64,000 nt of DNA from Rahnella aceris (GTDB lineage: Bacteria; Pseudomonadota; Gammaproteobacteria; Enterobacterales; Enterobacteriaceae). A program made the position numbers and the translations under genes. The DNA is taken from the NCBI RefSeq assembly GCF_011684115.1, contig NZ_JAADJV010000003.1:372001-436000 (forward strand). Reading direction: 5' to 3'. Under the pieces are notes generated by a model. It worked only from the letters and a program-made list of their open reading frames with translations, ran no database searches and was not told the DNA's origin. Below, one piece after another: positions 1-11,070 of the stretch (the stretch's first letter is position 1; each line of letters begins with the position of its first letter).

Positions 1-230
1 CCCACTCTGGCAATTACCGCTGGTGATGACAGGAAACCAGACAGACGCGGGTCACGTGAAAGCGACTGCGCTTCTGCCGGTACCACACCATCAGGCAGTT
101 TATGGAGTTCGGCTGGCTCGTTGGTGATCAGCAGGCGTTTACTGCTGAAGAACTTCACCATGTCAGCCGGCAGCGCGAACTGCACGATCCCCAGTTCTCG
201 CTGAGGATACGGTTTTAATAATGCTCTCAC
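1..230 (-). CDS. phage protein of unknown function, 3' part outside window
   Basis: The reverse strand is open from a GTG at 228-230 to the window edge, 76 codons (it begins MRALLKPYPQRELGIVQFAL). The GTG overlaps the TGA of the upstream antirepressor gene, the same coupling seen throughout this leftward prophage operon, which supports the start. The visible part is soluble, with no membrane segment or recognised domain. I do not recognise the family. Its place after rusA and the antirepressor fits the end of the early operon. Confidence 0.6.
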   Translation of the reverse strand, partial: MRALLKPYPQRELGIVQFALPADMVKFFSSKRLLITNEPAELHKLPDGVVPAEAQSLSRDPRLSGFLSSPAVIARV

Positions 231-922
231 GCGTGGGCCTCCTGTTTCTGTTGCAGATAACCAGCCCACAGCCCGGCAACCCACTCAACACCCTTCGCCG
301 TGAATCGCGCCTGGCGAAACGCGTGCTGATTCTGCGTGCTGGTACCAGTTTTCACCTGAAACCGGCCTGCCTCTAAATGATTGGCCTTTGGCGTCAACTG
401 GCCTTCCAACCGGTAAACAATGTCTTTCTCGAGCAGGAACATTCGGAATTCCGGTTCTTTCGCATGCAGCAATTTGCAGACAGCGCGGAATCCCATAGAG
501 CCCTTAGCCATAACGTACTGATCAACGAATTCCACTTTCGGGGCCGCCAGCGCCAGCTGTGATTCCAACGCCTGCTTTTCTTCGGCCAGATCAGCAGCCA
601 GTCGCAACGCTTCCGGCAATGACTGCGGAACCAGACTGCCTTCTTCTAATTTCTGCCACCGGTCGATAACAGCGGCAGTGAACTCAGGGGATAATTGTGC
701 GACCAGCACCAGAGAATCGCGCTTATTGAACCAGTACTCCTCATATTCCTGACCGTTCTGCTCATGGATATAGGGGGTGTGCGCCAACGGCGCGCTTAAA
801 ATTCCACCAGCCGCAAGCCTGTCAGCCGAGCGCTTCACGTCGCTGTGCTTACTCTTCACCAGCCCAGCAATCTCACGGCTCGACATTGTTACCACTTTTC
901 CTGACAGCAAACTGTTCGACAT
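227..922 (-). CDS. phage antirepressor, Rha N-terminal and KilAC-like C-terminal domains
   Basis: About 231 residues. Residues roughly 10-90 resemble the phage Rha regulatory domain (MSSREIAGLVKSKHSDVKRS start, then YEEYWFNKRDSLVLVAQLSPE). The last 110 residues resemble the KilAC antirepressor domain. Such proteins usually act against the phage repressor or regulate early functions; that role is inferred. ATG at 920-922 is preferred over the in-frame GTG at 926-928 because a GGAG ribosome site lies about six bases upstream of it. It lies between rusA and the partial distal gene. Confidence 0.8.
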   Translation of the reverse strand: MSNSLLSGKVVTMSSREIAGLVKSKHSDVKRSADRLAAGGILSAPLAHTPYIHEQNGQEYEEYWFNKRDSLVLVAQLSPEFTAAVIDRWQKLEEGSLVPQSLPEALRLAADLAEEKQALESQLALAAPKVEFVDQYVMAKGSMGFRAVCKLLHAKEPEFRMFLLEKDIVYRLEGQLTPKANHLEAGRFQVKTGTSTQNQHAFRQARFTAKGVEWVAGLWAGYLQQKQEAHA

Positions 923-936
923 AATCACTCCACACG

Positions 937-1311
937 TTAAACCGGCTGCACACCGGCGGCTTTGAAATCAGTAATCGTTATTTCTGCCTTACCACCCTTC
1001 GTTACCTCTCCCCATTCAACTGTCATGCGTTTGACCTGGCTGTCGTCCTTCCAGATCCCCGCATGGGTCAGGCCATCAAACAGCGCCTTCTGGAAATTAT
1101 CTAAATCGCGTTTTGCCCTGCTCGGCGGGAATAGAACCAGATGCACATCCAGTTCGGTGAGTAGCGCCGTCGGACGGCTGCGCAACTGCTGATAAATCGC
1201 CGCCAGCGCATTTGACCGGAAGATCCGCCCGCGCTCGCTGATTAGCACGCCCTTTCGGGTGGAGCGCCAGTAACCGTTGACGCTTGGCGGGAATGGCAAA
1301 ATCAGTCGCAT
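937..1311 (-). CDS. rusA: RusA-family Holliday junction resolvase
   Basis: A 124-residue protein, the usual RusA size. RusA dimers cut Holliday junctions made during phage recombination and replication. The family signature is visible: an N-terminal LPFPPSVNGYWR segment and an acidic core RAKRDLDNFQKALFDGLTHAGIWKDDSQV, which contains the conserved metal-binding Asp residues. The start is the ATG at 1309-1311, where family homology begins; the open frame runs further upstream but that part is the neighbouring gene in another frame. It follows the TGT-like gene with 5 bases between them. Confidence 0.9.
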   Translation of the reverse strand: MRLILPFPPSVNGYWRSTRKGVLISERGRIFRSNALAAIYQQLRSRPTALLTELDVHLVLFPPSRAKRDLDNFQKALFDGLTHAGIWKDDSQVKRMTVEWGEVTKGGKAEITITDFKAAGVQPV

Positions 1312-1316
1312 AAGCT

Positions 1317-2072
1317 TCAGACCTCCATCTGCAATTGCATGTTGAAGCGGTCCCGGATTTCGCAATATTCCAATGTGCCGGTGCTGTTGAAGGATTCGAT
1401 GCGCTCCGCCAACACATATGCGCGGGTTTCCTTTGACTGAGGTGAATACGTCCCTTTCCACGCACTATCAATTCCGATATTGCGGGCAATGTTGGTGCTG
1501 TCAGCTGACGCCAGCGGCAGTTTGGTGAAGATGTCCTTATTCAGCATGCGGAGACCATGCAGTTTGGTAATTGGCCGGCTATGAGCATCAACAACGTGAC
1601 GAATGATGTCCTTCATACGGGCCACGGCTTTAAGCGGTGATTTCACGTCATACTCACCACAACTGCCAATGGCTACACGCGGGTACTCATGGCAAAGCCG
1701 GATAAAACGCTCTTCGCTTTCGTTCATGTGCCAAACCGGGCAACCGGTAAATTTACTGTGTGGCCACTCAGCCAGCAGCGCATCATTCTCCGCCGCGCCG
1801 CCGTCTATAACGTCAGGAATGACGGCGAAATCGAGACCAGGGTGATTCTTCCAGCGCTCCACGAAGTCGTAATAATCTGACCAGTCGATTTTGTTTTTGC
1901 CTGCTTTCTTCCAGATAGAGAACGCGCCATTGTCTAAGGCGAATGACTGGCAGATTTCGGAAGCCAGCCCGAGCTGACTTGAATTGGCAAAAGAAATGAA
2001 TGCATGGCCACCTGACCAGGCCCGCATCGCGCAGGTATCCGGGGTGATAGGTCCGCCGTGATAGTGGATCAT
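1317..2072 (-). CDS. TGT/DpdA-like transglycosylase superfamily phage protein
   Basis: 251 residues. I place it in the tRNA-guanine transglycosylase superfamily from ordered motif matches: FALDNGAFS at 44-52 (TGT DSGGFQ), IPD at 85-87, RVAIGSCGEY at 132-141 (TGT AIGG..VGE), KLHGLRMLN at 170-178, and SADSTNIARNIG at 189-200 (TGT nucleophile region, D..PTRNARNG), making D191 the candidate nucleophile and D47 the candidate base-binding Asp. The C-terminal zinc-binding cysteines of bacterial Tgt are absent and it is shorter than Tgt. That combination is typical of DpdA-like enzymes that insert 7-deazaguanines into DNA. ATG overlaps the preceding TGA. Substrate and activity are inference. Confidence 0.65.
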   Translation of the reverse strand: MIHYHGGPITPDTCAMRAWSGGHAFISFANSSQLGLASEICQSFALDNGAFSIWKKAGKNKIDWSDYYDFVERWKNHPGLDFAVIPDVIDGGAAENDALLAEWPHSKFTGCPVWHMNESEERFIRLCHEYPRVAIGSCGEYDVKSPLKAVARMKDIIRHVVDAHSRPITKLHGLRMLNKDIFTKLPLASADSTNIARNIGIDSAWKGTYSPQSKETRAYVLAERIESFNSTGTLEYCEIRDRFNMQLQMEV

Positions 2073-2227
2073 CAGTTCACCTCCCCTGCTTTGATCAGGC
2101 TGTTCAGCACAGCATCAGCATGTTCCCGCGCCGCGGTGTAATCAGAGGGATGCAGCTCCCCTTCCGGGGAGACGGCTGTCAACCAACCGTTATAAGCAGC
2201 CAGCCAGATTTTCTGGAATTCGCTCAC
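2072..2227 (-). CDS. small phage protein of unknown function
   Basis: A 51-residue reading frame starting at GTG 2225-2227, which overlaps the TGA of the methyltransferase gene (GTGA), and ending in a TGA that overlaps the ATG of the TGT-like gene (ATGA). Double translational coupling on both sides is strong evidence that it is translated. The product begins SEFQKIWLAAYNGWLTAVSP and is probably helical and soluble. No family recognised. Confidence 0.6.
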   Translation of the reverse strand: MSEFQKIWLAAYNGWLTAVSPEGELHPSDYTAAREHADAVLNSLIKAGEVN

Positions 2228-2949
2228 GCAGCCACCTCCTTCAAGTTTTCAGCGCCAGCAGGAACAGCCAGGTAATGACCAGCCAGCACCTTGACTCGGG
2301 AGTTACGCGCCGGGGAGATCGTGGTAAAGGTCGCTGGTACCAGCTCGATATCGTTGAACGGGCTTTCATTGCCCCAGTGATGCCAGCCAGCAGCTTCACC
2401 GCGACTGAAAAGCTCGATGCGGGAAACCTGACCGTAAAGCTCTTCAAGACGGAAGCGTACTTCGGCAGGCTTTTCGCTATGTTCGCCACGGCAGCTGTAA
2501 ACGACCTGCTTAACGCTGGCGCTGAGGCGTTCAAGCCCGGCGCCGCGTGTGGCGATCAGAACATCTTCGCTATTGCCACGGGTGTAATTGCCGCCGTTCA
2601 TCACCGTTTCGGTGCTAAGCGCATCAAGAAAATCTTCAAAATCGAGCATGGTCTGATCTGCCAGCGCCCTTTCTATACGTCCGCGCGCCTGCTCGTAGAG
2701 CTTGACCCAAGTAAAAGCTTTCATGGTTTTGACCTTGAAGCCCCAGGCCTGCGCCAGCTCAACCGCTTCTGAGGCGAAGTTTCCGGTGTACCACATCGCA
2801 AGAATCGCGTTTTCATCAGCAATTGACCAAACCGGCAGGCGCTTCATTTCTTCGGTTGGCATGGTGCTGTAATGGTCACCCGCTGCGCCATTGCTTACTT
2901 TGTTGGAATACTGCCAGGCCGGATCTGCATAAATCAGTTGATAGCTCAT
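2224..2949 (-). CDS. MT-A70 family DNA N6-adenine methyltransferase
   Basis: 241 residues from the ATG at 2947-2949, which overlaps the stop of the replication gene. It begins MSYQLIYADPAWQY; DPAW at residues 9-12 is the catalytic (D/N)PPW-type motif of MT-A70 methyltransferases, which transfer a methyl group from SAM to adenine N6. STMPTEEM and the GNSEDVLIATRG block are also typical of phage members. Its position directly after the replication gene, where lambda has P, suggests it may protect new phage DNA or affect replication; that is inference. No helicase loader gene is visible. Confidence 0.85.
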   Translation of the reverse strand: MSYQLIYADPAWQYSNKVSNGAAGDHYSTMPTEEMKRLPVWSIADENAILAMWYTGNFASEAVELAQAWGFKVKTMKAFTWVKLYEQARGRIERALADQTMLDFEDFLDALSTETVMNGGNYTRGNSEDVLIATRGAGLERLSASVKQVVYSCRGEHSEKPAEVRFRLEELYGQVSRIELFSRGEAAGWHHWGNESPFNDIELVPATFTTISPARNSRVKVLAGHYLAVPAGAENLKEVAA

Positions 2950-3953
2950 GCTTTCACTCCCTGCTGGCGCTGGGCGCAGTCTTTCCAAATCTTGGCCCAC
3001 GTCGTAATGGCGAAATCAGCGCGCATGCTGCGGACGCTGGCTTTGCTGGCCTCTGTGCACACCATTTTTTCCAGCGTACTCGGTGCCTTCTTCGCCGCAA
3101 CGCCGCTGATGAACCGGCGGTATGCCGCGTCTCGCTCTGCGGTATCAACTGCAACGTCACTGCCAGAAGTCCACTTTCCGTTCACACAGCCCGGACGGCC
3201 ACTCTTCGCCCATTTGGTCGCGCTGAGCAGGTAGCCTTCAAACTTGGCTGGCTGGAACAGAGTTGCCGGGCGCAGATATTCAGCCATTTTTGGAGAGTCG
3301 CCCCAGTGAACCTGCTTGTATTCGATAACCAGTTGCAGTTCTTCCAGGGTGTGGCCTTCACGGAGACGGGCACGCATGTTTTCCAGTGAGCTATTAGCGG
3401 GCTGATAGCGTGAACCGGTGATTTGGTTCAGGTGTTTCAGTGCCTGTTTGGCTTGATCAGTAATTTCAACTTCGGCGTCGGTCTGCGCAGCAGGCTGACA
3501 AGAGGTTTTATTATCTGATGGATCTTGTTTTGAATTTACTAACGGATCCCCCCCAGATTCTGGCGGGTGAAAACCGGTATTCGTGTTGGTTTTTGATGCG
3601 TCGGATTTTGACCGGTCAGAATTTGATGTGTCAGATTTTGATGCGTCAGAATCTGACGGTTGAGCGGCAGCACGAAGCTTCGCAATATTCAGCTGGTACA
3701 TGTTCGACGTGTTGCGGTTTCCCTTACGGCGCTGAGTGCTGGTGATCCAGCCGTCAGCCTCAAGTTTGCCCAGCGTAGTGCGCACAGTGCTTTCACCAGC
3801 ACCCAACTGGCGGGCAATGGTGGTAATTGACGGCCAGCACAGGCCTTCGTCAGAACTGAAGTCAGCGAGGCGCGCCATGATGGCCACCGCCGATATTTTC
3901 AAACCGGCAGCAGCGCAACCATCCCAGACGTATGCGGATAACTTAACGCTCAT
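2946..3953 (-). CDS. phage replication protein, lambda O-like (winged HTH N-terminus)
   Basis: 335 residues. Residues about 15-95 form a helix-turn-helix domain (SITTIARQLGAGESTVRTTL) like those in phage origin-binding proteins. Residues 100-125 are a Ser/Asp/Lys-rich repeat linker encoded by tandem 15-bp DNA repeats. Residues about 170-245 match the conserved phage replication C-terminal domain (LNQITGSRYQPANSSLENMRARLREG region). The layout, with origin repeats inside the gene, matches lambda O. It is coupled upstream to the DUF4222 gene and downstream to the methyltransferase by ATGA overlaps. Confidence 0.85.
   Translation of the reverse strand: MSVKLSAYVWDGCAAAGLKISAVAIMARLADFSSDEGLCWPSITTIARQLGAGESTVRTTLGKLEADGWITSTQRRKGNRNTSNMYQLNIAKLRAAAQPSDSDASKSDTSNSDRSKSDASKTNTNTGFHPPESGGDPLVNSKQDPSDNKTSCQPAAQTDAEVEITDQAKQALKHLNQITGSRYQPANSSLENMRARLREGHTLEELQLVIEYKQVHWGDSPKMAEYLRPATLFQPAKFEGYLLSATKWAKSGRPGCVNGKWTSGSDVAVDTAERDAAYRRFISGVAAKKAPSTLEKMVCTEASKASVRSMRADFAITTWAKIWKDCAQRQQGVKA
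3592..3660. repeat. 15-bp tandem iterons, candidate prophage replication origin
   Basis: Four consecutive 15-bp units at 3592, 3607, 3622 and 3637 follow the form TTTGATGCGTCAGAT, with a degenerate fifth from 3652. Each contains a short dyad TGAnnnnTCA. They lie inside the O-like gene, in the part that encodes the flexible linker between its DNA-binding and C-terminal domains, exactly where lambdoid origins sit. Origin function is inferred from this arrangement. Confidence 0.7.
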
Positions 3954-4302
3954 AAGACCCTCTTAAATTTTCGCCGGAATTGTTCAGTAGGCTGGGCGCA
4001 TTCATGCGGGTAACCTGCACGCATGAAGATGACGCGATCCCCTGCTCTGTCGAAGCCCACGACGTGTACCACAACGCCCCGCCAATCTTTGTAGTGCCTG
4101 TCCAGCGTTTGGATTTCTTCAGACATGCAGTCACCTTCCGGCTTTTCACCCTGACGTAACCTACCCACCACCGGACGATCTGGTAGTTGCACGGTACCCA
4201 GTGGCCCGATACCATCACTTCGTACGACAAAGCTTGTTTGTTGCCGCCAGTCGCTTTGCAGCGCATTTGCGGGACGCCAGCTTTTATGAGTAAACTGTTC
4301 AT
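3943..4302 (-). CDS. overlapping phage reading frame, uncertain
   Basis: A 119-codon frame beginning ATG at 4300-4302, preceded by a TGGAGTAATTAACGC leader like the ones before the antirepressor and xis genes. Its first 60 codons cover DNA upstream of the DUF4222 start; the rest overlaps DUF4222 in another frame. The N-terminal part (MNSLLIKAGVPQMRCKATGG) looks protein-like, the C-terminal part less so. It may be a real gene, or the true gene may be shorter through a frameshift. I do not recognise it. Confidence 0.35.
   Translation of the reverse strand: MNSLLIKAGVPQMRCKATGGNKQALSYEVMVSGHWVPCNYQIVRWWVGYVRVKSRKVTACLKKSKRWTGTTKIGGALWYTSWASTEQGIASSSCVQVTRMNAPSLLNNSGENLRGSYER
3950..4126 (-). CDS. 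DUF4222 phage protein
   Basis: 58 residues from the ATG at 4124-4126, which has a GGAAGGTGA ribosome site; the frame is open back to 4192. The DRHYKDWRGVVVHVVGFD and RVIFMRAGYPHECAQP segments fit the DUF4222 family of small lambdoid early proteins, of unknown function. Its TGA overlaps the ATG of the replication gene. A second reading frame on the same strand (3943-4302) overlaps it almost entirely. Confidence 0.7.
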   Translation of the reverse strand: MSEEIQTLDRHYKDWRGVVVHVVGFDRAGDRVIFMRAGYPHECAQPTEQFRRKFKRVL

Positions 4303-4309
4303 GCGTTAA

Positions 4310-4816
4310 TTACTCCACACACGTTTTTAATGCGCCGACGCCTCGGGACTGCACTCCTGAGGCGTCAACCCTTTCATGCAAAGCCACAACTGACTTCACA
4401 TACTCATCGCGCGCAGATAAGTGCTTGAAATGCAACGCCATAATCTCGGCCTTCTCGTTCTGATCAATCACGCCGTCATCTGCAATAGACGTGTTGATTT
4501 GCTGATCCACCTTCCCGCTCTTTGCAGCCACCTTTACGCCCTTAATAAACAGATCAACGTGGTCCAGCTCATCGCGATTTGGGATTTCAACGAAAAAGCC
4601 ACCACGCCGCTGGGCGAAGTAATCCGCCAGGTGATTGGTGCCGCTGATGTCTTCCATCGCTTCCAGCTCGGCAATTTCGAAGAACCGGCAGCCGTTCTTT
4701 TCGTACAAATTGTTGTTGAACTGCGTTTCAGTCATGCCCAGAGCGCCAGCCATAGCAGACCGACCGCCGGGATAGGCTTTGCACATCGTTTTAACTACTG
4801 ATTTCAGGTCTACCAT
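4310..4816 (-). CDS. CII/YmfL-family phage regulator
   Basis: 168 residues from ATG at 4814-4816 (MVDLKSVVKTMCKAYPGGRS); the frame extends to 4852 but the family begins here. GGRSAMAGALGMTETQFNNNLYEKNG at residues 18-43 is the helix-turn-helix of the YmfL-type phage CII proteins, which activate repressor and integrase promoters on entry to lysogeny. Gene order cro, this gene, replication gene matches lambda cro-cII-O. The C-terminal 90 residues are helical and probably oligomerise. Confidence 0.75.
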   Translation of the reverse strand: MVDLKSVVKTMCKAYPGGRSAMAGALGMTETQFNNNLYEKNGCRFFEIAELEAMEDISGTNHLADYFAQRRGGFFVEIPNRDELDHVDLFIKGVKVAAKSGKVDQQINTSIADDGVIDQNEKAEIMALHFKHLSARDEYVKSVVALHERVDASGVQSRGVGALKTCVE

Positions 4817-4835
4817 GTTGTTTTCCCTTTGGTAG

Positions 4836-5051
4836 TTATGGTTGTTCGCCACTGGTGATAGCCTTTTTGTAAAGTGTTGGGTCGTATTTCAGTTCACCTT
4901 TGGTTCTATATGCAGCCTCGGCAGCTCGGCCTTTTGGGATCAGTTGGCCAGGGCGCTTTCTCCACAAATAAAATGCTTCAGGGGATATCCCAAAAAACTC
5001 AGCGACTTTACCGGGTTCGCCAAAATATTTTTCAAGGTCACTCGTCGTCAT
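4836..5051 (-). CDS. Cro-like repressor
   Basis: 71 residues, helix-turn-helix (KVAEFFGISPEAFYLWRK, residues 15-32) of the YdaS/Cro type. It is divergent from the cI gene and separated from it by 97 bases holding operator-like palindromes, so it occupies the lambda cro position. Expected role: shut-off of repressor synthesis and tuning of early transcription in lytic growth. A CACCTCC complement just upstream of the start gives a GGAGGTG ribosome site. Confidence 0.8.
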   Translation of the reverse strand: MTTSDLEKYFGEPGKVAEFFGISPEAFYLWRKRPGQLIPKGRAAEAAYRTKGELKYDPTLYKKAITSGEQP

Positions 5052-5064
5052 AACACCTCCGATT

Positions 5065-5128
5065 TCTAAATTAATTTAGATAGTATTATTTAATTTTATT
5101 TTGATCAATAAAAACTAAAATAACTTAG
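5065..5128. promoter_or_regulatory. OR-like operator sites between cro and cI
   Basis: A perfect 16-bp palindrome TCTAAATTAATTTAGA lies at 5065-5080 and a weaker copy CTAAAATAACTTAG at 5115-5128. The same CTAAA..TTTAG half-sites recur downstream of cI, as expected for OR and OL of a lambdoid repressor. The sites flank the start regions of both divergent genes. Confidence 0.75.
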
Positions 5129-5148
5129 GTTCATTAAGAGGATGGAAA

Positions 5149-5793
5149 ATGCTTACCCAAGGGCAGCGGATAAAAAACCTTCGTAAAGACAGGAAACTGA
5201 CTCAAGCTCAGGTCGCAAAGGCGTTAGGTGTTAGTGATGTGACTATTGGCTACTGGGAACGTGACCTGAATGAACCGGGTGGGAAGTCTTTGAGTAATTT
5301 GGCGGCTTTTTTCGGTGTTTCTGAGGCTTTCATTCTTTACGGTAAAGAAGAAATTTCTAACATCATTCCCGCATCATTTGGGACACGCCAGATCCCCATT
5401 ATCAGTTACGTTCAGGCTGGTATCTGGACATCCGCGTCGGACGCAAGCAACCTTGAAGGTAATATTGACTACATCCTAACTGACATAGGACTATCACCCC
5501 GTTCTTTTGCCTTAAAAATCAAAGGAAAGTCAATGGAGCCAGAGTTTACTGAAGGTGATCTAATTATCGTTGATCCGGACATAGGTCCGCTGCCTGGTGA
5601 TTACGTTGTAGCGAAGAATGGTGAACATGAAGCAACATTCAAAAAATACAGAGCACGTGGCAGAGATGCTGGGGGTAATGAGATTTTTTCCCTTGTGCCT
5701 CTAAATCAAGATTTCCCAACAAAACATTCTGACCAAGAACCCATATCAATAATTGGCGTAATGGTAGAGCACCGAAAATTCAGACGGCGTTGA
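5149..5793 (+). CDS. cI: prophage repressor CI, XRE HTH plus S24 autoprotease
   Basis: 214 residues. N-terminal XRE helix-turn-helix (LTQAQVAKALGVSDVTIGYWE, about 17-37); C-terminal LexA/CI S24 peptidase domain with a scissile Ala90-Gly91 (VQAGIW), nucleophile Ser128 (GKSMEP) and general base Lys165 (EATFKKY). The protein should hold the prophage silent and cleave itself when RecA is activated by DNA damage, so SOS induction is expected. A GAGGATGG leader precedes the ATG. All catalytic residues are present, so the switch looks intact. Confidence 0.92.
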   Translation: MLTQGQRIKNLRKDRKLTQAQVAKALGVSDVTIGYWERDLNEPGGKSLSNLAAFFGVSEAFILYGKEEISNIIPASFGTRQIPIISYVQAGIWTSASDASNLEGNIDYILTDIGLSPRSFALKIKGKSMEPEFTEGDLIIVDPDIGPLPGDYVVAKNGEHEATFKKYRARGRDAGGNEIFSLVPLNQDFPTKHSDQEPISIIGVMVEHRKFRRR

Positions 5794-5845
5794 TCCCCCC
5801 TTCCTACTAGCCCTACTTCATTCAAAACACCTTCCAGTTAAAAAT

Positions 5846-5894
5846 CTAAATATTTTTAGTTTTAACCGTTGCATTAAAAACTAAATTATTTTAG
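5846..5894. promoter_or_regulatory. OL-like operator pair downstream of cI
   Basis: CTAAATATTTTTAG at 5846-5859 and CTAAATTATTTTAG at 5881-5894 match the half-sites in the cro-cI interval, with centres 35 bp apart. Their place just beyond cI, ahead of the rightward small genes, equals lambda OL/PL. A rightward early promoter controlled by CI is inferred here. Confidence 0.7.
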
Positions 5895-6024
5895 ATTTAC
5901 ACCATCAGCAGTGATCAACGTGGATGCCCACGCAGTAGTTGCAGGTGGCAAAGAAGCATCGAATGATTCTCTCAGGTATCAGCAGCACGACGGCAAGAAC
6001 GCAGCAGCTTAATGAGGTATCAGG

Positions 6025-6183
6025 ATGGATAAGCAAGAACCGAAAATTATTGGTTTGGGATCTTCGAATGAAGAGTTAATTGAAGAAACTGTTTCTGAAA
6101 TATTGCAAAAGCATGCACACCAAGTGGCCGCCTTTTTGGAAGGCGGCGAGATTACCAAAATTAATCTCTTATCTTCGGATTGA
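6025..6183 (+). CDS. small prophage early protein
   Basis: 52 residues (begins MDKQEPKIIGLGSSNEELIE), acidic and helical, with no cysteine or membrane segment. It lies just downstream of the OL-like sites, where lambdoid phages carry N and other early genes. I do not recognise it; it lacks the arginine-rich N-terminus of N antiterminators. A weak purine-rich leader precedes the ATG. Confidence 0.4.
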   Translation: MDKQEPKIIGLGSSNEELIEETVSEILQKHAHQVAAFLEGGEITKINLLSSD

Positions 6184-6403
6184 AAGCTTCAATTCGGTTA
6201 ATAAGCAACTTGGTTGCCGAGGCAACGGCAGGATCCTTACCTTTATAAGCTTGAGCATGACGATTTAGATTTTCAATGACGTCGCTTTTTACTGTGGGTA
6301 AGGCGGTTGAAACGGAATGAAGCGCTACCGTGAATGCGTTCTCAAGAGCTTCAATCCTACGGGCTAAAGTGACTAAATTAGTCGAAGCGTTTTCCACCTT
6401 CAT
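6161..6403 (-). CDS. small prophage protein of unknown function
   Basis: 80 residues from the ATG at 6401-6403, which has an AAGGAA ribosome site; the open frame extends upstream to 6508 but without such a site. The product (MKVENASTNLVTLARRIEAL start) is helical and could form a coiled coil. Its 3' end overlaps convergently with the end of the small rightward gene at 6183. No family recognised. Confidence 0.5.
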   Translation of the reverse strand: MKVENASTNLVTLARRIEALENAFTVALHSVSTALPTVKSDVIENLNRHAQAYKGKDPAVASATKLLINRIEAFNPKIRD

Positions 6404-6560
6404 TTCCTTCTTGGCTGTGTGAGAACTACCAAGATAACACCGCCGCCTGAGGTGGAGAAGTGACCAGGCATACAACGGCAAGAACACTGGGGTTGAGGAG
6501 CTCATCAACCGAAGTCACTCATGACCACAGTTGAAAAGTGTTCTTGCCGATGTTTAGGGA

Positions 6561-6752
6561 TTAGTGGATCTGTAAGTCAGGGACTAGCGTCAGATATGGA
6601 ATTTCGCGGAAGGTTACAACTTCATGAACGTTAACTGGATGCTTACACACTGCACATACGATGGAGGAGATAGTCTCAGAGAATACGACGTCAGAAGTGA
6701 CATTGAATCTCTCAGAATTACATTTTTCGCAGATAAGTTTTATATCGGGCAT
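6561..6752 (-). CDS. small zinc-ribbon phage protein, ECs_2282-like
   Basis: 63 residues with two CxxC pairs (CEKC at residues 8-11 and CAVC at 33-36) that form a four-cysteine zinc ribbon. It resembles the ECs_2282-type small zinc-binding proteins found in lambdoid prophages, whose function is unknown. It lies on the strand opposite the flanking rightward early genes. Confidence 0.6.
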   Translation of the reverse strand: MPDIKLICEKCNSERFNVTSDVVFSETISSIVCAVCKHPVNVHEVVTFREIPYLTLVPDLQIH

Positions 6753-7375
6753 TTTTAACTCACGGATAAGTGATGATCTTAATCAGATTATTAAGAATTT
6801 TCTTATTCCAATGATAAGTATAGCAGACGTTTAGATTCTTGAATGAGTGCATAACGTAAAGAGCACTGACGGTGAGCAAGCTGGCAAAGCTTTCAACATC
6901 CTACAGTCCCGATAGTGCTCTCTCCGTTGTGGCCAGCATCAGGTGATGGTCGGGTTCCCTACCCGATTGCGGGTTCGACTCCCGCCGCCCATTCAGATCG
7001 ACGTGGAACCTCGATAATTGCTGTGTGTAGCTGTCTTTCGGCGGTGGCATGACTCTTCAACCATCCAACATCAGGGGGAGCGAAGATAATGTTCTGATCA
7101 TGACCACCGCCAATTTTTTCGCAGGCATAGACAAGGGCCGCTGGCACCCACCCAGCACGCCCTGTGCATTACCGGCCGCCCTTGTCTATGTGTGTGAGTA
7201 ATTTCTCGCGGTGTGCGCCGCGGTATCGGCGAATTCAAAGTCTGATAGCGCGGCCTTAAATGCCCTGGTCCACTGGGGCATTTAGTGAATCGTTATTACT
7301 GAAATTTAATTGCCAATGCTGGCAAGGGATTCGCTCACGCCGAAATCTGGAAATCACTTACTTAGGAATGCAGCC
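6753..7375. other. gene-poor prophage interval with RNA-like structures
   Basis: No convincing protein gene. It holds a tRNA-like T arm at 6969-6985, a 13-bp inverted repeat at 7126-7138/7178-7190 with a nested hairpin, and a 9-bp stem (TAAATGCCC) at 7257-7265/7276-7284. A 62-codon reverse frame at 6959-7147 crosses the T-arm and has no ribosome site. The interval may encode non-coding early RNA. Confidence 0.5.
6950..6990 (+). other. tRNA-like remnant (anticodon-like and T arms)
   Basis: TCGGG-TTCCCTA-CCCGA (6950-6966) could form a five-pair stem with a seven-base loop, followed after two bases by GCGGG-TTCGACT-CCCGC (6969-6985), a canonical T arm. No matching 5' acceptor strand or full variable loop is present, so it cannot be an ordinary tRNA. 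Confidence 0.35.
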
Positions 7376-7867
7376 ATGAAACTTATTCAACCGGTCACAC
7401 CAGAACGCAATGCCGATAACTTGGGATATTGGACTCACCCTGATTTCTTCGAACCGGCCAACGGTAACGAATACCCAGCGCCCGGCGAATTTGAAGCGTG
7501 GGCAAAAGCTCAGGGTGTCGAGGTTTATACCCTGTCACTTGATGCCGATCCAGCAGCTGACGATATTCAGGCCGCCTATGAAGTAGGCGAAGCTGATGTT
7601 TCTGCGTGGAACCCTACTCCGCCAATCGGTGAAGGCTGGTTCCTTGCCTCAATTCACGATACCGAGGACGGCCCTTATAGCGTTTGGTTCCGCCGCAATA
7701 CTGAAGAACAAGCCGAAATTGCGCGCCTTAAAACCGACTTTTTGGAAAAGCACCAGGTGGCGATCACCGCCGCTTATGAATATTTCAAAGCCTGCCCTGT
7801 GGGTAATGAACGCACTATCGCACACCAGATTTATCAGGTACTGCGCACGGCTACGAGGGTGGGCTGA
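7376..7867 (+). CDS. phage protein of unknown function
   Basis: 163 residues from ATG at 7376-7378, preceded by TAGGAATGCAGCC; the longer frame from 7310 has no ribosome site. The protein starts MKLIQPVTPERNADNLGYWT, is acidic and probably soluble, and ends in a helical region. Similar proteins occur in lambdoid prophages of enterobacteria, but no function is known to me. It is followed after one base by the DUF4406 gene. Confidence 0.6.
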   Translation: MKLIQPVTPERNADNLGYWTHPDFFEPANGNEYPAPGEFEAWAKAQGVEVYTLSLDADPAADDIQAAYEVGEADVSAWNPTPPIGEGWFLASIHDTEDGPYSVWFRRNTEEQAEIARLKTDFLEKHQVAITAAYEYFKACPVGNERTIAHQIYQVLRTATRVG

Positions 7868-7868
7868 A

Positions 7869-8165
7869 ATGAAAGTTTATATCGCCGGGCCAATGACAGG
7901 CCTGCCACATTTCAACCGCCCTGCTTTCAAACGGGCAGCTATAAACCTGTCATTTGAAAAGCATGTGCCACTGAATCCGGCAATCATGCCTGATGGCCTA
8001 ACAAAAGCTGATTACATGGCTATCGGCCTGACGATGCTGCAACGCGCCGAAGCGATTTACCTGCTTACCGGTTGGCAGTTCAGCGCAGGCGCCAGAGCTG
8101 AACATGCGCTGGCCTTAAAGTTGGGTTTGGAAGTAATCGAACAGAGGGAAAGAAGCCATGGCTGA
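7869..8165 (+). CDS. DUF4406 phage protein
   Basis: 98 residues beginning MKVYIAGPMTGLPHFNRPAF. The YIAGPMTG motif and the later GWQFSAGARAEHALALKLGL segment are typical of DUF4406, a family with a fold like nucleoside 2-deoxyribosyltransferase. The conserved residues suggest nucleotide or nucleoside binding, but no reaction has been established to my knowledge. The stop overlaps the next small gene's start (ATGGCTGA). Confidence 0.8.
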   Translation: MKVYIAGPMTGLPHFNRPAFKRAAINLSFEKHVPLNPAIMPDGLTKADYMAIGLTMLQRAEAIYLLTGWQFSAGARAEHALALKLGLEVIEQRERSHG

Positions 8166-8322
8166 GACAACCCGTTCACATTTCGTCAGGCGGTTTTGCG
8201 TGAAAAGAATGCTGAATCTGTGGTTTGTTCCGGTTGAGTTTGCGCCAGCAGTGCCGCCAGGTATGAAAATGCTCTGGTGGCGAGCTGGAAAATATTACGG
8301 CCGATTTCGGGTCAGTCAGTAA
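8158..8322 (+). CDS. small basic phage protein
   Basis: 54 residues (MAETTRSHFVRRFCVKRMLN start), basic and aromatic-rich. Its ATG overlaps the last codons of the DUF4406 gene, with an AGGGAAAGAAG ribosome site, so coupled translation is likely. No family recognised. Confidence 0.5.
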   Translation: MAETTRSHFVRRFCVKRMLNLWFVPVEFAPAVPPGMKMLWWRAGKYYGRFRVSQ

Positions 8323-8364
8323 ACCGGTGTGCAGCTGGCTATAATTAAACGTGTGGAGTGATAT

Positions 8365-8607
8365 ATGACGAGAACATTAACGCTTGATGAATGGGCTCTC
8401 GAAGAGTTTTCCGCGCCAATACCTAGCAGACCAACGCTGATGAGGTATGCGAAAAATGGAATGATATACCCCCTGCCCTTTAAAGCTGGGCGGTGCTGGC
8501 GTGTTGAAGCATCAGCGCGTTTCATTGGGATAGCTGAGAAGCCTGTGATCAACAAGGATATAGATCCACGTTTAATGAGGATTCTCGAAGATGGCACGTC
8601 CACGTAA
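8365..8607 (+). CDS. xis: excisionase (Xis)
   Basis: 80 residues with a winged-helix excisionase pattern: EWALEEF, then RPTLMRYAKNGMIYPLPFKAGRCWRVEA, the recognition helix and wing of lambda Xis-type proteins. Xis bends attachment-site DNA and steers integrase toward excision. A GTGGAGTGATAT leader precedes the ATG. Its 3' end overlaps the integrase start by 17 bases, as in many lambdoid phages. Confidence 0.85.
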   Translation: MTRTLTLDEWALEEFSAPIPSRPTLMRYAKNGMIYPLPFKAGRCWRVEASARFIGIAEKPVINKDIDPRLMRILEDGTST

Positions 8608-9715
8608 ATATAACGTGAATATTCCCGGGCTGTCGTGTTACATGGACGCCAGAACCAATAAGGTTTACTGGCGTTACAAGCATCCAGCCACAGGTAAGTT
8701 CCACGGTTTGGGGGACAACGAAGAGGAGGCAAAAGCAATCGCAATAGATGCGAATATGCAACTCAATCAGAGGAAAATGGCAAATCTCCTGAGAGTAAGA
8801 AATGAAATTAGCCGTGAAGTGAATAAAGGCATCACTACCAATGCATGGGTTGATAAATACAGAGCGATTCAGCTAGAAAGGGTTAAAGCTGGTGAAATAA
8901 AACCCGATACAGCGAAATTGCGGGAACCTTCTTTACGAGCATTAATTTCTCATTGCGGGATAAAACCATTGTCGGAAGTCGGTGCCAGAGATATTGCTGG
9001 GATCCTCGATATTTACATTGAAAAAGGTCAGGGAAGGATGGCGCAGATGGTGCGTTCGAATCTAAGTGATGTATTCAAAGAAGCTCAGCATGCAGGTGAA
9101 GTTCCGGCTGGTTATAACCCTGCGAAGGCAACAAAACAACCTCGGGCAAAAGTTTCACGACAGAGACTTTCATTTGATGAATGGAAAGCCATTTATTCGG
9201 CTGCATTAACGTTACCGGTGCATATTCCCAGGGCAATGCTATTGGCCTTAATTACAGGCCAACGGATAGGAGATATATCAAAGTTGAAATTTACTGATAT
9301 CTGGGATGACAAACTTCATGTAGTTCAGCAAAAAACCGGGGCTAAAGTAGCTATACCCCTTTCTTTGAAATGTGAGGCGTTGGGACTGTCTCTTCAGGAT
9401 GTGATAGCTGAATGCCGAGATTCTGTTTTGAGTCAGTGGATCTTGCATCATCACCGTTCACGAAGAAACTGTACCCGTGGTGGGCAGATAACTAAAAGCA
9501 CACTCTCAAAAGGATTTGCTGAAGCCCGAGATAAAAGTGGTCTGCTGTGGGAGGGAGAGAATCCTCCAACATTCCATGAACAGAGGTCATTGTCGGAACG
9601 CTTGTTCAGAGAGCAAGGAATAAACACGCAAGTTTTACTTGGACATAAAAATAGTCAAATGACGGAGAAGTATAACGACGACCGGGGGAAAGACTGGAAG
9701 GAAGTTGTTGTTTAA
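8591..9715 (+). CDS. int: lambda-type tyrosine integrase
   Basis: 374 residues. N-terminal arm-binding domain (MARPRKYNVNIPGLSCYMD, lambda Int type), core-binding domain, and C-terminal catalytic domain with Arg225 (ITGQRIGD), Lys248 (QQKTGAKV), His329 and Arg332 (FHEQRSL), His352 (LLGHKN) and nucleophile Tyr361 (TEKYND). All residues needed for recombination are present. It is the last prophage gene, about 75 bases from the porin remnant, so it probably catalysed insertion into that gene. Confidence 0.93.
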   Translation: MARPRKYNVNIPGLSCYMDARTNKVYWRYKHPATGKFHGLGDNEEEAKAIAIDANMQLNQRKMANLLRVRNEISREVNKGITTNAWVDKYRAIQLERVKAGEIKPDTAKLREPSLRALISHCGIKPLSEVGARDIAGILDIYIEKGQGRMAQMVRSNLSDVFKEAQHAGEVPAGYNPAKATKQPRAKVSRQRLSFDEWKAIYSAALTLPVHIPRAMLLALITGQRIGDISKLKFTDIWDDKLHVVQQKTGAKVAIPLSLKCEALGLSLQDVIAECRDSVLSQWILHHHRSRRNCTRGGQITKSTLSKGFAEARDKSGLLWEGENPPTFHEQRSLSERLFREQGINTQVLLGHKNSQMTEKYNDDRGKDWKEVVV

Positions 9716-9726
9716 TTAAGATGCCG

Positions 9727-9758
9727 TTTTGCAGAAGAATTTTGCAGGAGTTTTGCAG
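9727..9758. repeat. TTTTGCAG triplet, candidate integrase arm sites
   Basis: TTTTGCAG occurs three times at 9727, 9740 and 9751, between the int stop and the porin remnant. Closely spaced direct repeats next to the attachment core are typical of arm-type integrase sites. Binding is inferred. Confidence 0.45.
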
Positions 9759-9764
9759 GGATGA

Positions 9765-9806
9765 ACATTTACTCTTAAATAATAGTCAGTTAGCAGTTGA
9801 TACCCA
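9765..9806. other. prophage-host junction (attachment site region) in porin gene
   Basis: Porin homology on the reverse strand runs to about TYDFGMGI and then stops at a TAA at 9790-9792, where a full porin would continue for over 100 residues. The int gene ends at 9715. The crossover core should therefore lie about here; its exact limits need the other prophage end, outside the window. Confidence 0.6.
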
Positions 9807-10479
9807 TACCGAAGTCATAAGTGGTAGAAAGAGCATAGCCATCACCATTCTGATGACGAACGTCGCGGCCATTATTCGTGCCTTCACCTGCTGGTGTATA
9901 GTTAATGTCTTCGCTGTTGTTATCGCCATCATTCGCACCCTGATATTGCAGCGCAAAGTTCCAGCCTTTTACTTCACCAAAGAAGTCTGTATTACGGTAA
10001 GTCGCAACGCCATTAGTACGACCAACCATAAAGTTATCAGAAGAGGTGTAGGTATCGCCGCCGAACACTGGCAGCATATCGGTCCAGGCTTCAATGTCAT
10101 ACACAACGCCGTAGTTACGGCCGTAATCGAATGAACCGAAGTCAGCGAATTTCAGACCTGCAAAGCCCAGACGGGTGGCGTTGCCTGATGTACCTGTATT
10201 TTCAGAATTATTAGCCTGGACGTTGTATTCCCACTGGCCGTAACCGGTCAGTTGATCGGTAATTTGGGTTTCACCTTTAAAGCCTACACGAACATACGTT
10301 ACGTCGCCGTCCTGACCTGCATCATCTGAAAATTGGTGACGTGCATCAACTTTGCCATACAGGTCCAGTTTATTGCCGTCTTTATTATATATTTCTGCGG
10401 AATGAGCTGCGCCTGCAACCAGTAATGCCGGGATAATAAGTGCCAATGCTTTTAATTTCATGATGTATTCCTTTATCAT
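9790..10479 (-). pseudogene. OmpC/OmpF-type porin truncated by prophage insertion
   Basis: 229 codons against roughly 350-380 in intact general porins. It has a signal peptide ending [28 protein letters not shown], then beta-barrel strands and the constriction loop region ([10 protein letters not shown]). It ends [18 protein letters not shown] at the prophage junction, so at least a third of the barrel and the C-terminal Phe are missing; it cannot fold as a normal porin. The start may be the ATG six codons in ([15 protein letters not shown], 10461), which has an AGGAATACATC leader. A divergent micF-like RNA points to the ompC type. Confidence 0.85.
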
Positions 10480-10713
10480 TTAATTGGATACTTGAATTTA
10501 TTATATATATATTTTCAATGAGTTAGACTCGTATTAATATTACCTGCAGAGTTCCGTGGTTCTGTAGATAAATTATCGGTTTTAATTTTATTATTTATTA
10601 CTAATTATTTCTGTCGGTATTATCAATATTTCGAATGAATGTTATAGTTAATTTCATATAAAATATGTATTTATAATTATATATTTTTCTGTGGTACTTT
10701 ATTTCCGGGTTGT

Positions 10714-10834
10714 GGAATCATCACTGCAATCCTATTTACCCTTCCTTGGTTTTACTTATATTCTTTTTAGTCGCCGTTTTACCCCTGTTAACGGCGTTAG
10801 TATGTCGCCCCGCCTGACTGCGGGGCTTTTTTTT
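10714..10834 (+). ncRNA. micF: candidate micF antisense RNA
   Basis: Divergent from the porin, as micF is from ompC. The 5' segment GGAATCATCACTGCAATCC resembles the MicF 5' end (ATCATCA and a following TATTTACC), and GTTTTACCCCTGTTAACGG resembles its internal GTTTACCCC region. It ends in a clear terminator: stem GCCCCG/CGGGGC at 10807-10826 followed by eight T. At about 120 nt it is longer than the E. coli RNA (about 93). Expected target: ompF mRNA. Assignment is by recalled sequence similarity. Confidence 0.5.
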
Positions 10835-10838
10835 GCAT

Positions 10839-10869
10839 AAAAAAACCCATAACCGGCGAAAGTTATGGG
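10839..10869 (-). terminator. intrinsic terminator for the reverse-strand unit
   Basis: Stem CCCATAAC/GTTATGGG (10846-10853 and 10862-10869), followed on the reverse strand by seven T (A-run 10839-10845). It would stop transcription coming leftward from the small genes at 11.1-11.8 kb and insulate micF. Confidence 0.75.
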
Positions 10870-11070
10870 CTCAACAAATGAGAGAGAACTAAAATTTCTA
10901 CGACGAGGTCAGAGAGACTTTCCACAACAACCTGCATAACAGATGTCACGGTTGCGTTATCCGCAGCGGAAACACCGGCTATTCAGGGTACAGCACATAA
11001 TTTCAGGAGAAGGCTTCTCTCATGGCACAGCTCGTTCCAGTAACTGAACCGCAATAAACGGATATAACGA
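10870..11070. other. interval without a supported gene
   Basis: Between the terminator and the small gene at 11071. On the reverse strand there is only a 24-codon frame (10863-10937) with no ribosome site, ending in the terminator stem. It may be the 3' untranslated part of the upstream transcript. Confidence 0.4.

Follow-up and report, generated by a model that had tools for sequence, protein, structure and literature searches.

Disruption of host genes by prophages is well documented. In Staphylococcus aureus, a phiSa3int prophage splits and inactivates hlb, and its excision restores the gene (PMC6597384). A lambdoid phage within a general porin gene is represented by lambda at a secondary site in ompF of E. 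coli, where the resistance of the lysogen to tetracycline was raised; the site in question is a rare, laboratory-selected one (PMC5605937). In the PPompW prophages of E. coli, the attachment site lies in ompW, which likewise encodes an outer-membrane protein, and the repeat measures 121 bp (PMC8112680; LC567828). Phages of the phage 21 type form a fourth point of comparison, with a target gene that is convergent with the integrase gene.

The locus considered here is a split OmpC-type porin gene of Rahnella aceris. It was analysed in a window, meaning the whole stretch of 64,000 nucleotides at C3:372001-436000, taken from a draft genome of 5.23 Mb in 10 contigs. A preliminary description had placed a prophage inside an outer-membrane porin gene, which is confirmed by the finding of both halves flanking the prophage and of an uninterrupted gene in relatives. 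The 5' piece occupies 9790..10479 on the minus strand as an open reading frame of 229 codons, and it covers positions 1-176 of 337 of the Porin_1 profile (Pfam, E 3.5e-73). The 229-codon stump at the prophage border had thus been described correctly, whereas the span of 9715-10479 given for it was too long, as the bases from the integrase stop (9715) to 9790 contain no porin sequence. The stump comprises a signal peptide (recognised by eye), approximately 225 host codons and then 2-3 codons of phage DNA followed by a stop. Translation probably starts at the second ATG (10461), because nine of ten intact orthologs begin there at MKLKA; among the ten, the longer start is common to the stump and G001 only. 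The missing 3' part, which had been predicted at the other prophage end together with a duplicated core, was found at C3:339330-339938 (L008:7330-7938), with an exact 19-bp core and a C-terminus normal for a porin (VGVGLQYQF). The Porin_1 matches of the 5' piece (C3:381796-382383) and the 3' piece (C3:339333-339947) lie on the same strand of one contig, and the halves are 41,974 bp apart from core to core. Outside the 5' piece lie its upstream region, a 137-aa open reading frame that matches no Pfam family, and a gene for a short-chain dehydrogenase; outside the 3' piece lie a gene for an Rrf2-type regulator and a large RND-pump-like gene (the latter named by eye).

The profile match assigns the split gene to the OmpC/OmpF-type (Porin_1) family. 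The closest solved structures to the stump are OmpK37, OmpK36 and OmpC, and the intact ortholog of G001 exceeds the cut-off of the NCBIfam OmpC subfamily (540.8 vs 484 bits). A genome-wide Porin_1 search gave seven places, namely five full-length porins, all on contig C1, and the 5' and 3' pieces; it revealed no further porin sequence in the prophage. In a tree of 27 porins, the five full-length proteins belong to other clades than the split ortholog. An intact copy, which would have marked the stump as an unrelated duplicate, is therefore absent from this genome according to the search and the tree. A porin end supplied by the phage is ruled out, given that the stump closes in phage codons and a stop and the prophage holds no other porin.

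The attachment core, TGATACCCATACCGAAGTC, is 19 bp long, lies at 9798..9816, begins 82 bases past the integrase stop codon and falls at about codons 222-228 of the 391 of the porin. It is repeated exactly at C3:339824-339842 (L008:7824-7842), with no other match at up to two mismatches in the regions scanned (the window, L007 and L008). A direct repeat at both junctions and a host gene in two pieces are the features of a gene-disrupting prophage, the basis of negative lysogenic conversion. Three direct repeats of TTTTGCAG lie between the integrase gene and the core at 9727..9758 on the plus strand (starting at 9727, 9740 and 9751); they are probably arm-binding sites of the integrase, and similar repeats occur 3' of the integrase gene in the relatives examined. 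An attP pattern built from the two prophage ends, which would miss variants, gave no matches in the IMG/VR viral contigs.

The integrase-side end of the prophage occupies 1..9797 of the window, and the remainder extends left of it to C3:339824. The tyrosine integrase (8591..9715, plus strand, 374 aa) possesses lambda-type arm-binding and catalytic domains and shares 50-54% identity with its counterparts in several phages, phage 21 and PPompW among them. It is accompanied by an excisionase gene (8365..8607, plus strand; phrog_629, E 7.4e-26), and the int and xis frames are both open. A CI-type repressor with helix-turn-helix and S24 peptidase domains (5149..5793, plus strand) was identified by domain and PHROGs matches, and a CII-like activator is encoded at 4310..4852 on the minus strand (phrog_101, E 3.4e-38). 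A PHROGs scan of 20 prophage open reading frames returned 17 clear matches, one weak match and two without a match. The structural matches include both terminase subunits, the portal, the major head protein, the tape measure, a minor tail protein, J and a tail fibre; excisionase, CI-type repressor, CII, endolysin and spanin were also matched. The lambdoid prophage looks complete by these matches.

Two further genes of the prophage may act in modification. A glycosyltransferase gene at C3:364021-365475 (L007:12021-13475, minus strand; phrog_1579, E 3e-223; Glycos_transf_2) is possibly a surface-sugar modification gene. An open reading frame at 1317-2072 of the window (minus strand), which matches the queuine tRNA-ribosyltransferase group phrog_887 (E 7e-94) and no Pfam family, is perhaps a DNA-base modification gene.

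These features are very probably explained by a lambdoid Rahnella phage that uses a 19-bp stretch in an OmpC-type porin gene as its attachment site and breaks the gene in doing so, with precise excision expected to restore the frame. Integration requires Int and the core, and excision requires Xis as well. Recombination by the phage integrase at the porin stretch would separate a 5' half, which retains the promoter and the signal peptide, from a 3' half now 42 kb distant, and no replacement porin end comes with the phage. At most, the lysogen would make an exported, truncated protein of some 223-229 residues that bears the signal peptide (judged by eye). Assembly of the porin barrel depends on the C-terminal strand and its motif, and a working pore is very unlikely because the fragment lacks the later strands and this motif. 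Loss of this porin in lysogens is thus well supported at the sequence level, and we infer that the porin protein is absent. Precise excision by Int and Xis should rejoin a single porin reading frame; clean restoration of the gene is expected because the cores match and int and xis are intact. The five other porins may soften any effect on drugs, solutes or phage adsorption.

The likeness to phiSa3int in hlb lies in the site-specific prophage that splits a host gene, and excision restoring the gene, shown there, is what we infer here (PMC6597384); the phage, the host and the gene differ. The likeness to lambda in ompF is the lambdoid phage within a general porin gene, whereas the secondary site in ompF is rare and was obtained by laboratory selection (PMC5605937) and the Rahnella site is natural and repeatedly used. 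The PPompW integrase is 49.5% identical to that of the Rahnella prophage, but OmpW belongs to another family and the repeat is 19 bp in Rahnella rather than 121 bp (PMC8112680; LC567828). Among the open-access matches listed for the terms searched, none reports a naturally occurring attachment site within an OmpC/OmpF-type porin gene; as far as these searches reach, a mid-gene site of this kind in an OmpC-type porin, natural and repeatedly used, seems to be new.

The porin frame runs uninterrupted across the insertion point in ten of 13 other Rahnella genomes (G001, G002, G003, G004, G005, G006, G009, G010, G011 and G013) and is split in one; the remaining two (G007 and G012) could not be scored, as their contigs end at the upstream region of the porin. 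The AT-rich sequence that precedes the porin contains or lies close to a contig end in three genomes (G007:C275, G008:C2 and G012:C40). In the nearest relative, G001, a single frame of 391 codons continues across the insertion point, and the flanking sequences align to the left and to the right of it. The right flank is alignable in all ten intact genomes and the Rrf2-side flank in eight; the two remaining loci carry other DNA (L022) and a transposase gene (L025) there. The split gene belongs to R. rivi (G008), in which the porin is divided at the identical point into pieces approximately 42 kb apart. Its cores agree at 18 of 19 bases, and the re-joined gene there would therefore not match its parent exactly.

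The upstream region of the porin (10480..10835, minus strand) is kept in the lysogen and is alignable in the ten intact orthologs. Beyond it, the segment at 10836-10960 (minus strand) is nearly invariant in the R. aceris genome and the ten intact orthologs and ends in a 12-pair hairpin followed by a T run. It gives a weak RybB match (21.7 bits; cut-off 40) and is possibly a small RNA gene. At 10735-10826 on the plus strand, divergent from the porin, a promoter-like site is followed by a G+C-rich hairpin and a T run, with an Rfam anti-hemB match under the cut-off (29.4 vs 49.5 bits). Small RNA genes adjoin porin genes in E. coli, and the arrangement at 10735-10826 is reminiscent of this.

Occupied sites were also sought among viral contigs, taking the best 80 of 599 confirmed integrase loci in IMG/VR, of which 49 end within 300 bases of the integrase gene and could not be scored. 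Nine of the 80 encode integrases 91-100% identical to that of the Rahnella prophage: the porin stump is present in seven of them, and the other two records terminate at the core and at the integrase stop, respectively. No 3' porin pieces were found for the IMG/VR records, which end early. Misassembly, or a partial duplicate of unrelated origin, could mimic a split gene, and the junctions do sit in a draft assembly; however, the flanks on both sides join up with the intact ortholog in G001, and the identical junction recurs in seven IMG/VR records as well as in R. rivi. Such an artefact is ruled out on these grounds, its probability being practically nil.

The phages at this site are clearly different. 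The aligned pieces of the R. aceris and R. rivi prophages total about 10.5 of 42 kb (summed by hand), and the identity of J to that of the R. aceris prophage is 94% in G088, 84% in G087, 51% in G085, 50% in G084 and 51% in R. rivi. The porin stump is present in G084, G085 and G087, and the G088 record ends exactly at the core. Because different phages sit at the same point, the attachment site is in repeated use rather than the relic of one old event. The variation in J bears on another reading, in which insertion breaks the gene for the receptor that the phage itself uses and so shuts out its relatives. Some lambdoid phages use OmpC-type porins as receptors, as that reading would require, but N15 and HK225 are FhuA users, and N15 gp21 and HK225 J each share 84% identity with the J of the Rahnella prophage. 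Since J is N15/HK225-like and varies among the phages at the site, removal of the receptor is a most unlikely reason for the choice of this gene.

Relatives of the integrase in genome contigs adjoin many other genes. Among the best 80 of 159 confirmed relatives, a set from which records near the R. aceris genome may be missing, a porin piece adjoins the integrase gene in two, R. rivi and Ewingella americana, and five loci end within 300 bases of it. Genome searches yielded another 45 loci, including some repeats, and among these a porin was present only in R. aceris and R. rivi. The R. rivi integrase is 91% identical to that of R. aceris, and both form a well-supported group with the R. laticis integrase (100/99, tree of 23 rows), which sits in an enolase-superfamily gene that appears to be cut short (L067:5203-5883). 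A Pantoea relative adjoins a chemotaxis receptor gene that seems to lack its start (L068:5226-7067).

In E. americana the break in the porin falls at profile position 319 of 337 and the porin tail lies 44 kb away, and the prophage ends have about eight bases in common, CTTTATAG (by eye). This porin joins the Rahnella ortholog group with support of 100/100 in the tree of 27 porins, and its gene neighbours are unlike those of the Rahnella ortholog. The Ewingella integrase is 57% identical to that of R. aceris and falls outside the group with R. rivi and R. laticis. As judged from sequence, two integrase lineages have struck one porin ortholog, each at a different point, which can be a coincidence because there are about six porins per genome. 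A neutral choice of site, in which porin DNA is conserved enough to serve and losing one of the six porins has little consequence, is reasonably likely. It fits the diversity of genes beside the integrase relatives (the enolase-superfamily and chemotaxis receptor genes among them), the two porin loci among the best 80 in genome contigs and the six porin genes per genome, whereas the second strike on the ortholog in Ewingella, if not coincidental, speaks against it.

A hairpin with a T run lies 3' of the porin gene in all ten intact orthologs scanned. In nine it contains the same CCCATC/GATGGG terminator element, with a different element in L025, and this element also follows the 3' porin pieces of R. 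aceris and R. rivi. By those criteria, the porin strand of both lysogens lacks a terminator within int and in the interval that separates int from the stump. As the insertion has displaced the terminator by 42 kb, porin transcription in the lysogen may run antisense through int. A general scanner found weak terminator-like sites on the porin strand at 9857-9838, 9486-9472 and 8753-8739, which count against full read-through. A terminator beside int was found in seven of eight icd-type loci compared with none of six other loci scanned; other terminator criteria gave one match among those six (L083). The R. aceris integrase is 50.5% identical to that of phage 21, and the target gene is convergent with int in both cases. 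However, all eight icd-type loci have a full-length-sized frame beside int, which we take from its sequence to be icd, and seven of them a terminator; the porin phages restore neither. An icd phage of the phage 21 type is rejected for this locus, where the target is a porin and is left truncated.

From these observations a coupled switch can be imagined, in which antisense transcription from the porin, its terminator moved 42 kb away, brakes excision by passing through int, prophage and porin form one reversible switch and the Ewingella hit reflects selection for porin loss; we regard this as quite unlikely. A switch in regular use (active lysogeny), with excision and re-entry, or loss from some of the cells, toggling the porin as a regulated or selected trait in the way reported for phiSa3 and hlb, is unlikely to a lesser degree. 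The open int and xis frames, the matching cores, the preserved frames of both porin halves and the use of the site by clearly different phages all accord with it, but five other full-length porins are present, and a recent insertion alone predicts intact halves equally well.

General porins govern entry into the enterobacterial cell, and some of them are phage receptors. With a lambdoid phage integrating into an OmpC-type porin gene, lysogeny alone can alter the porin content of Rahnella, perhaps reversibly. The site would also provide a clean case for testing neutral against selected site choice by phages through the gene that is broken.
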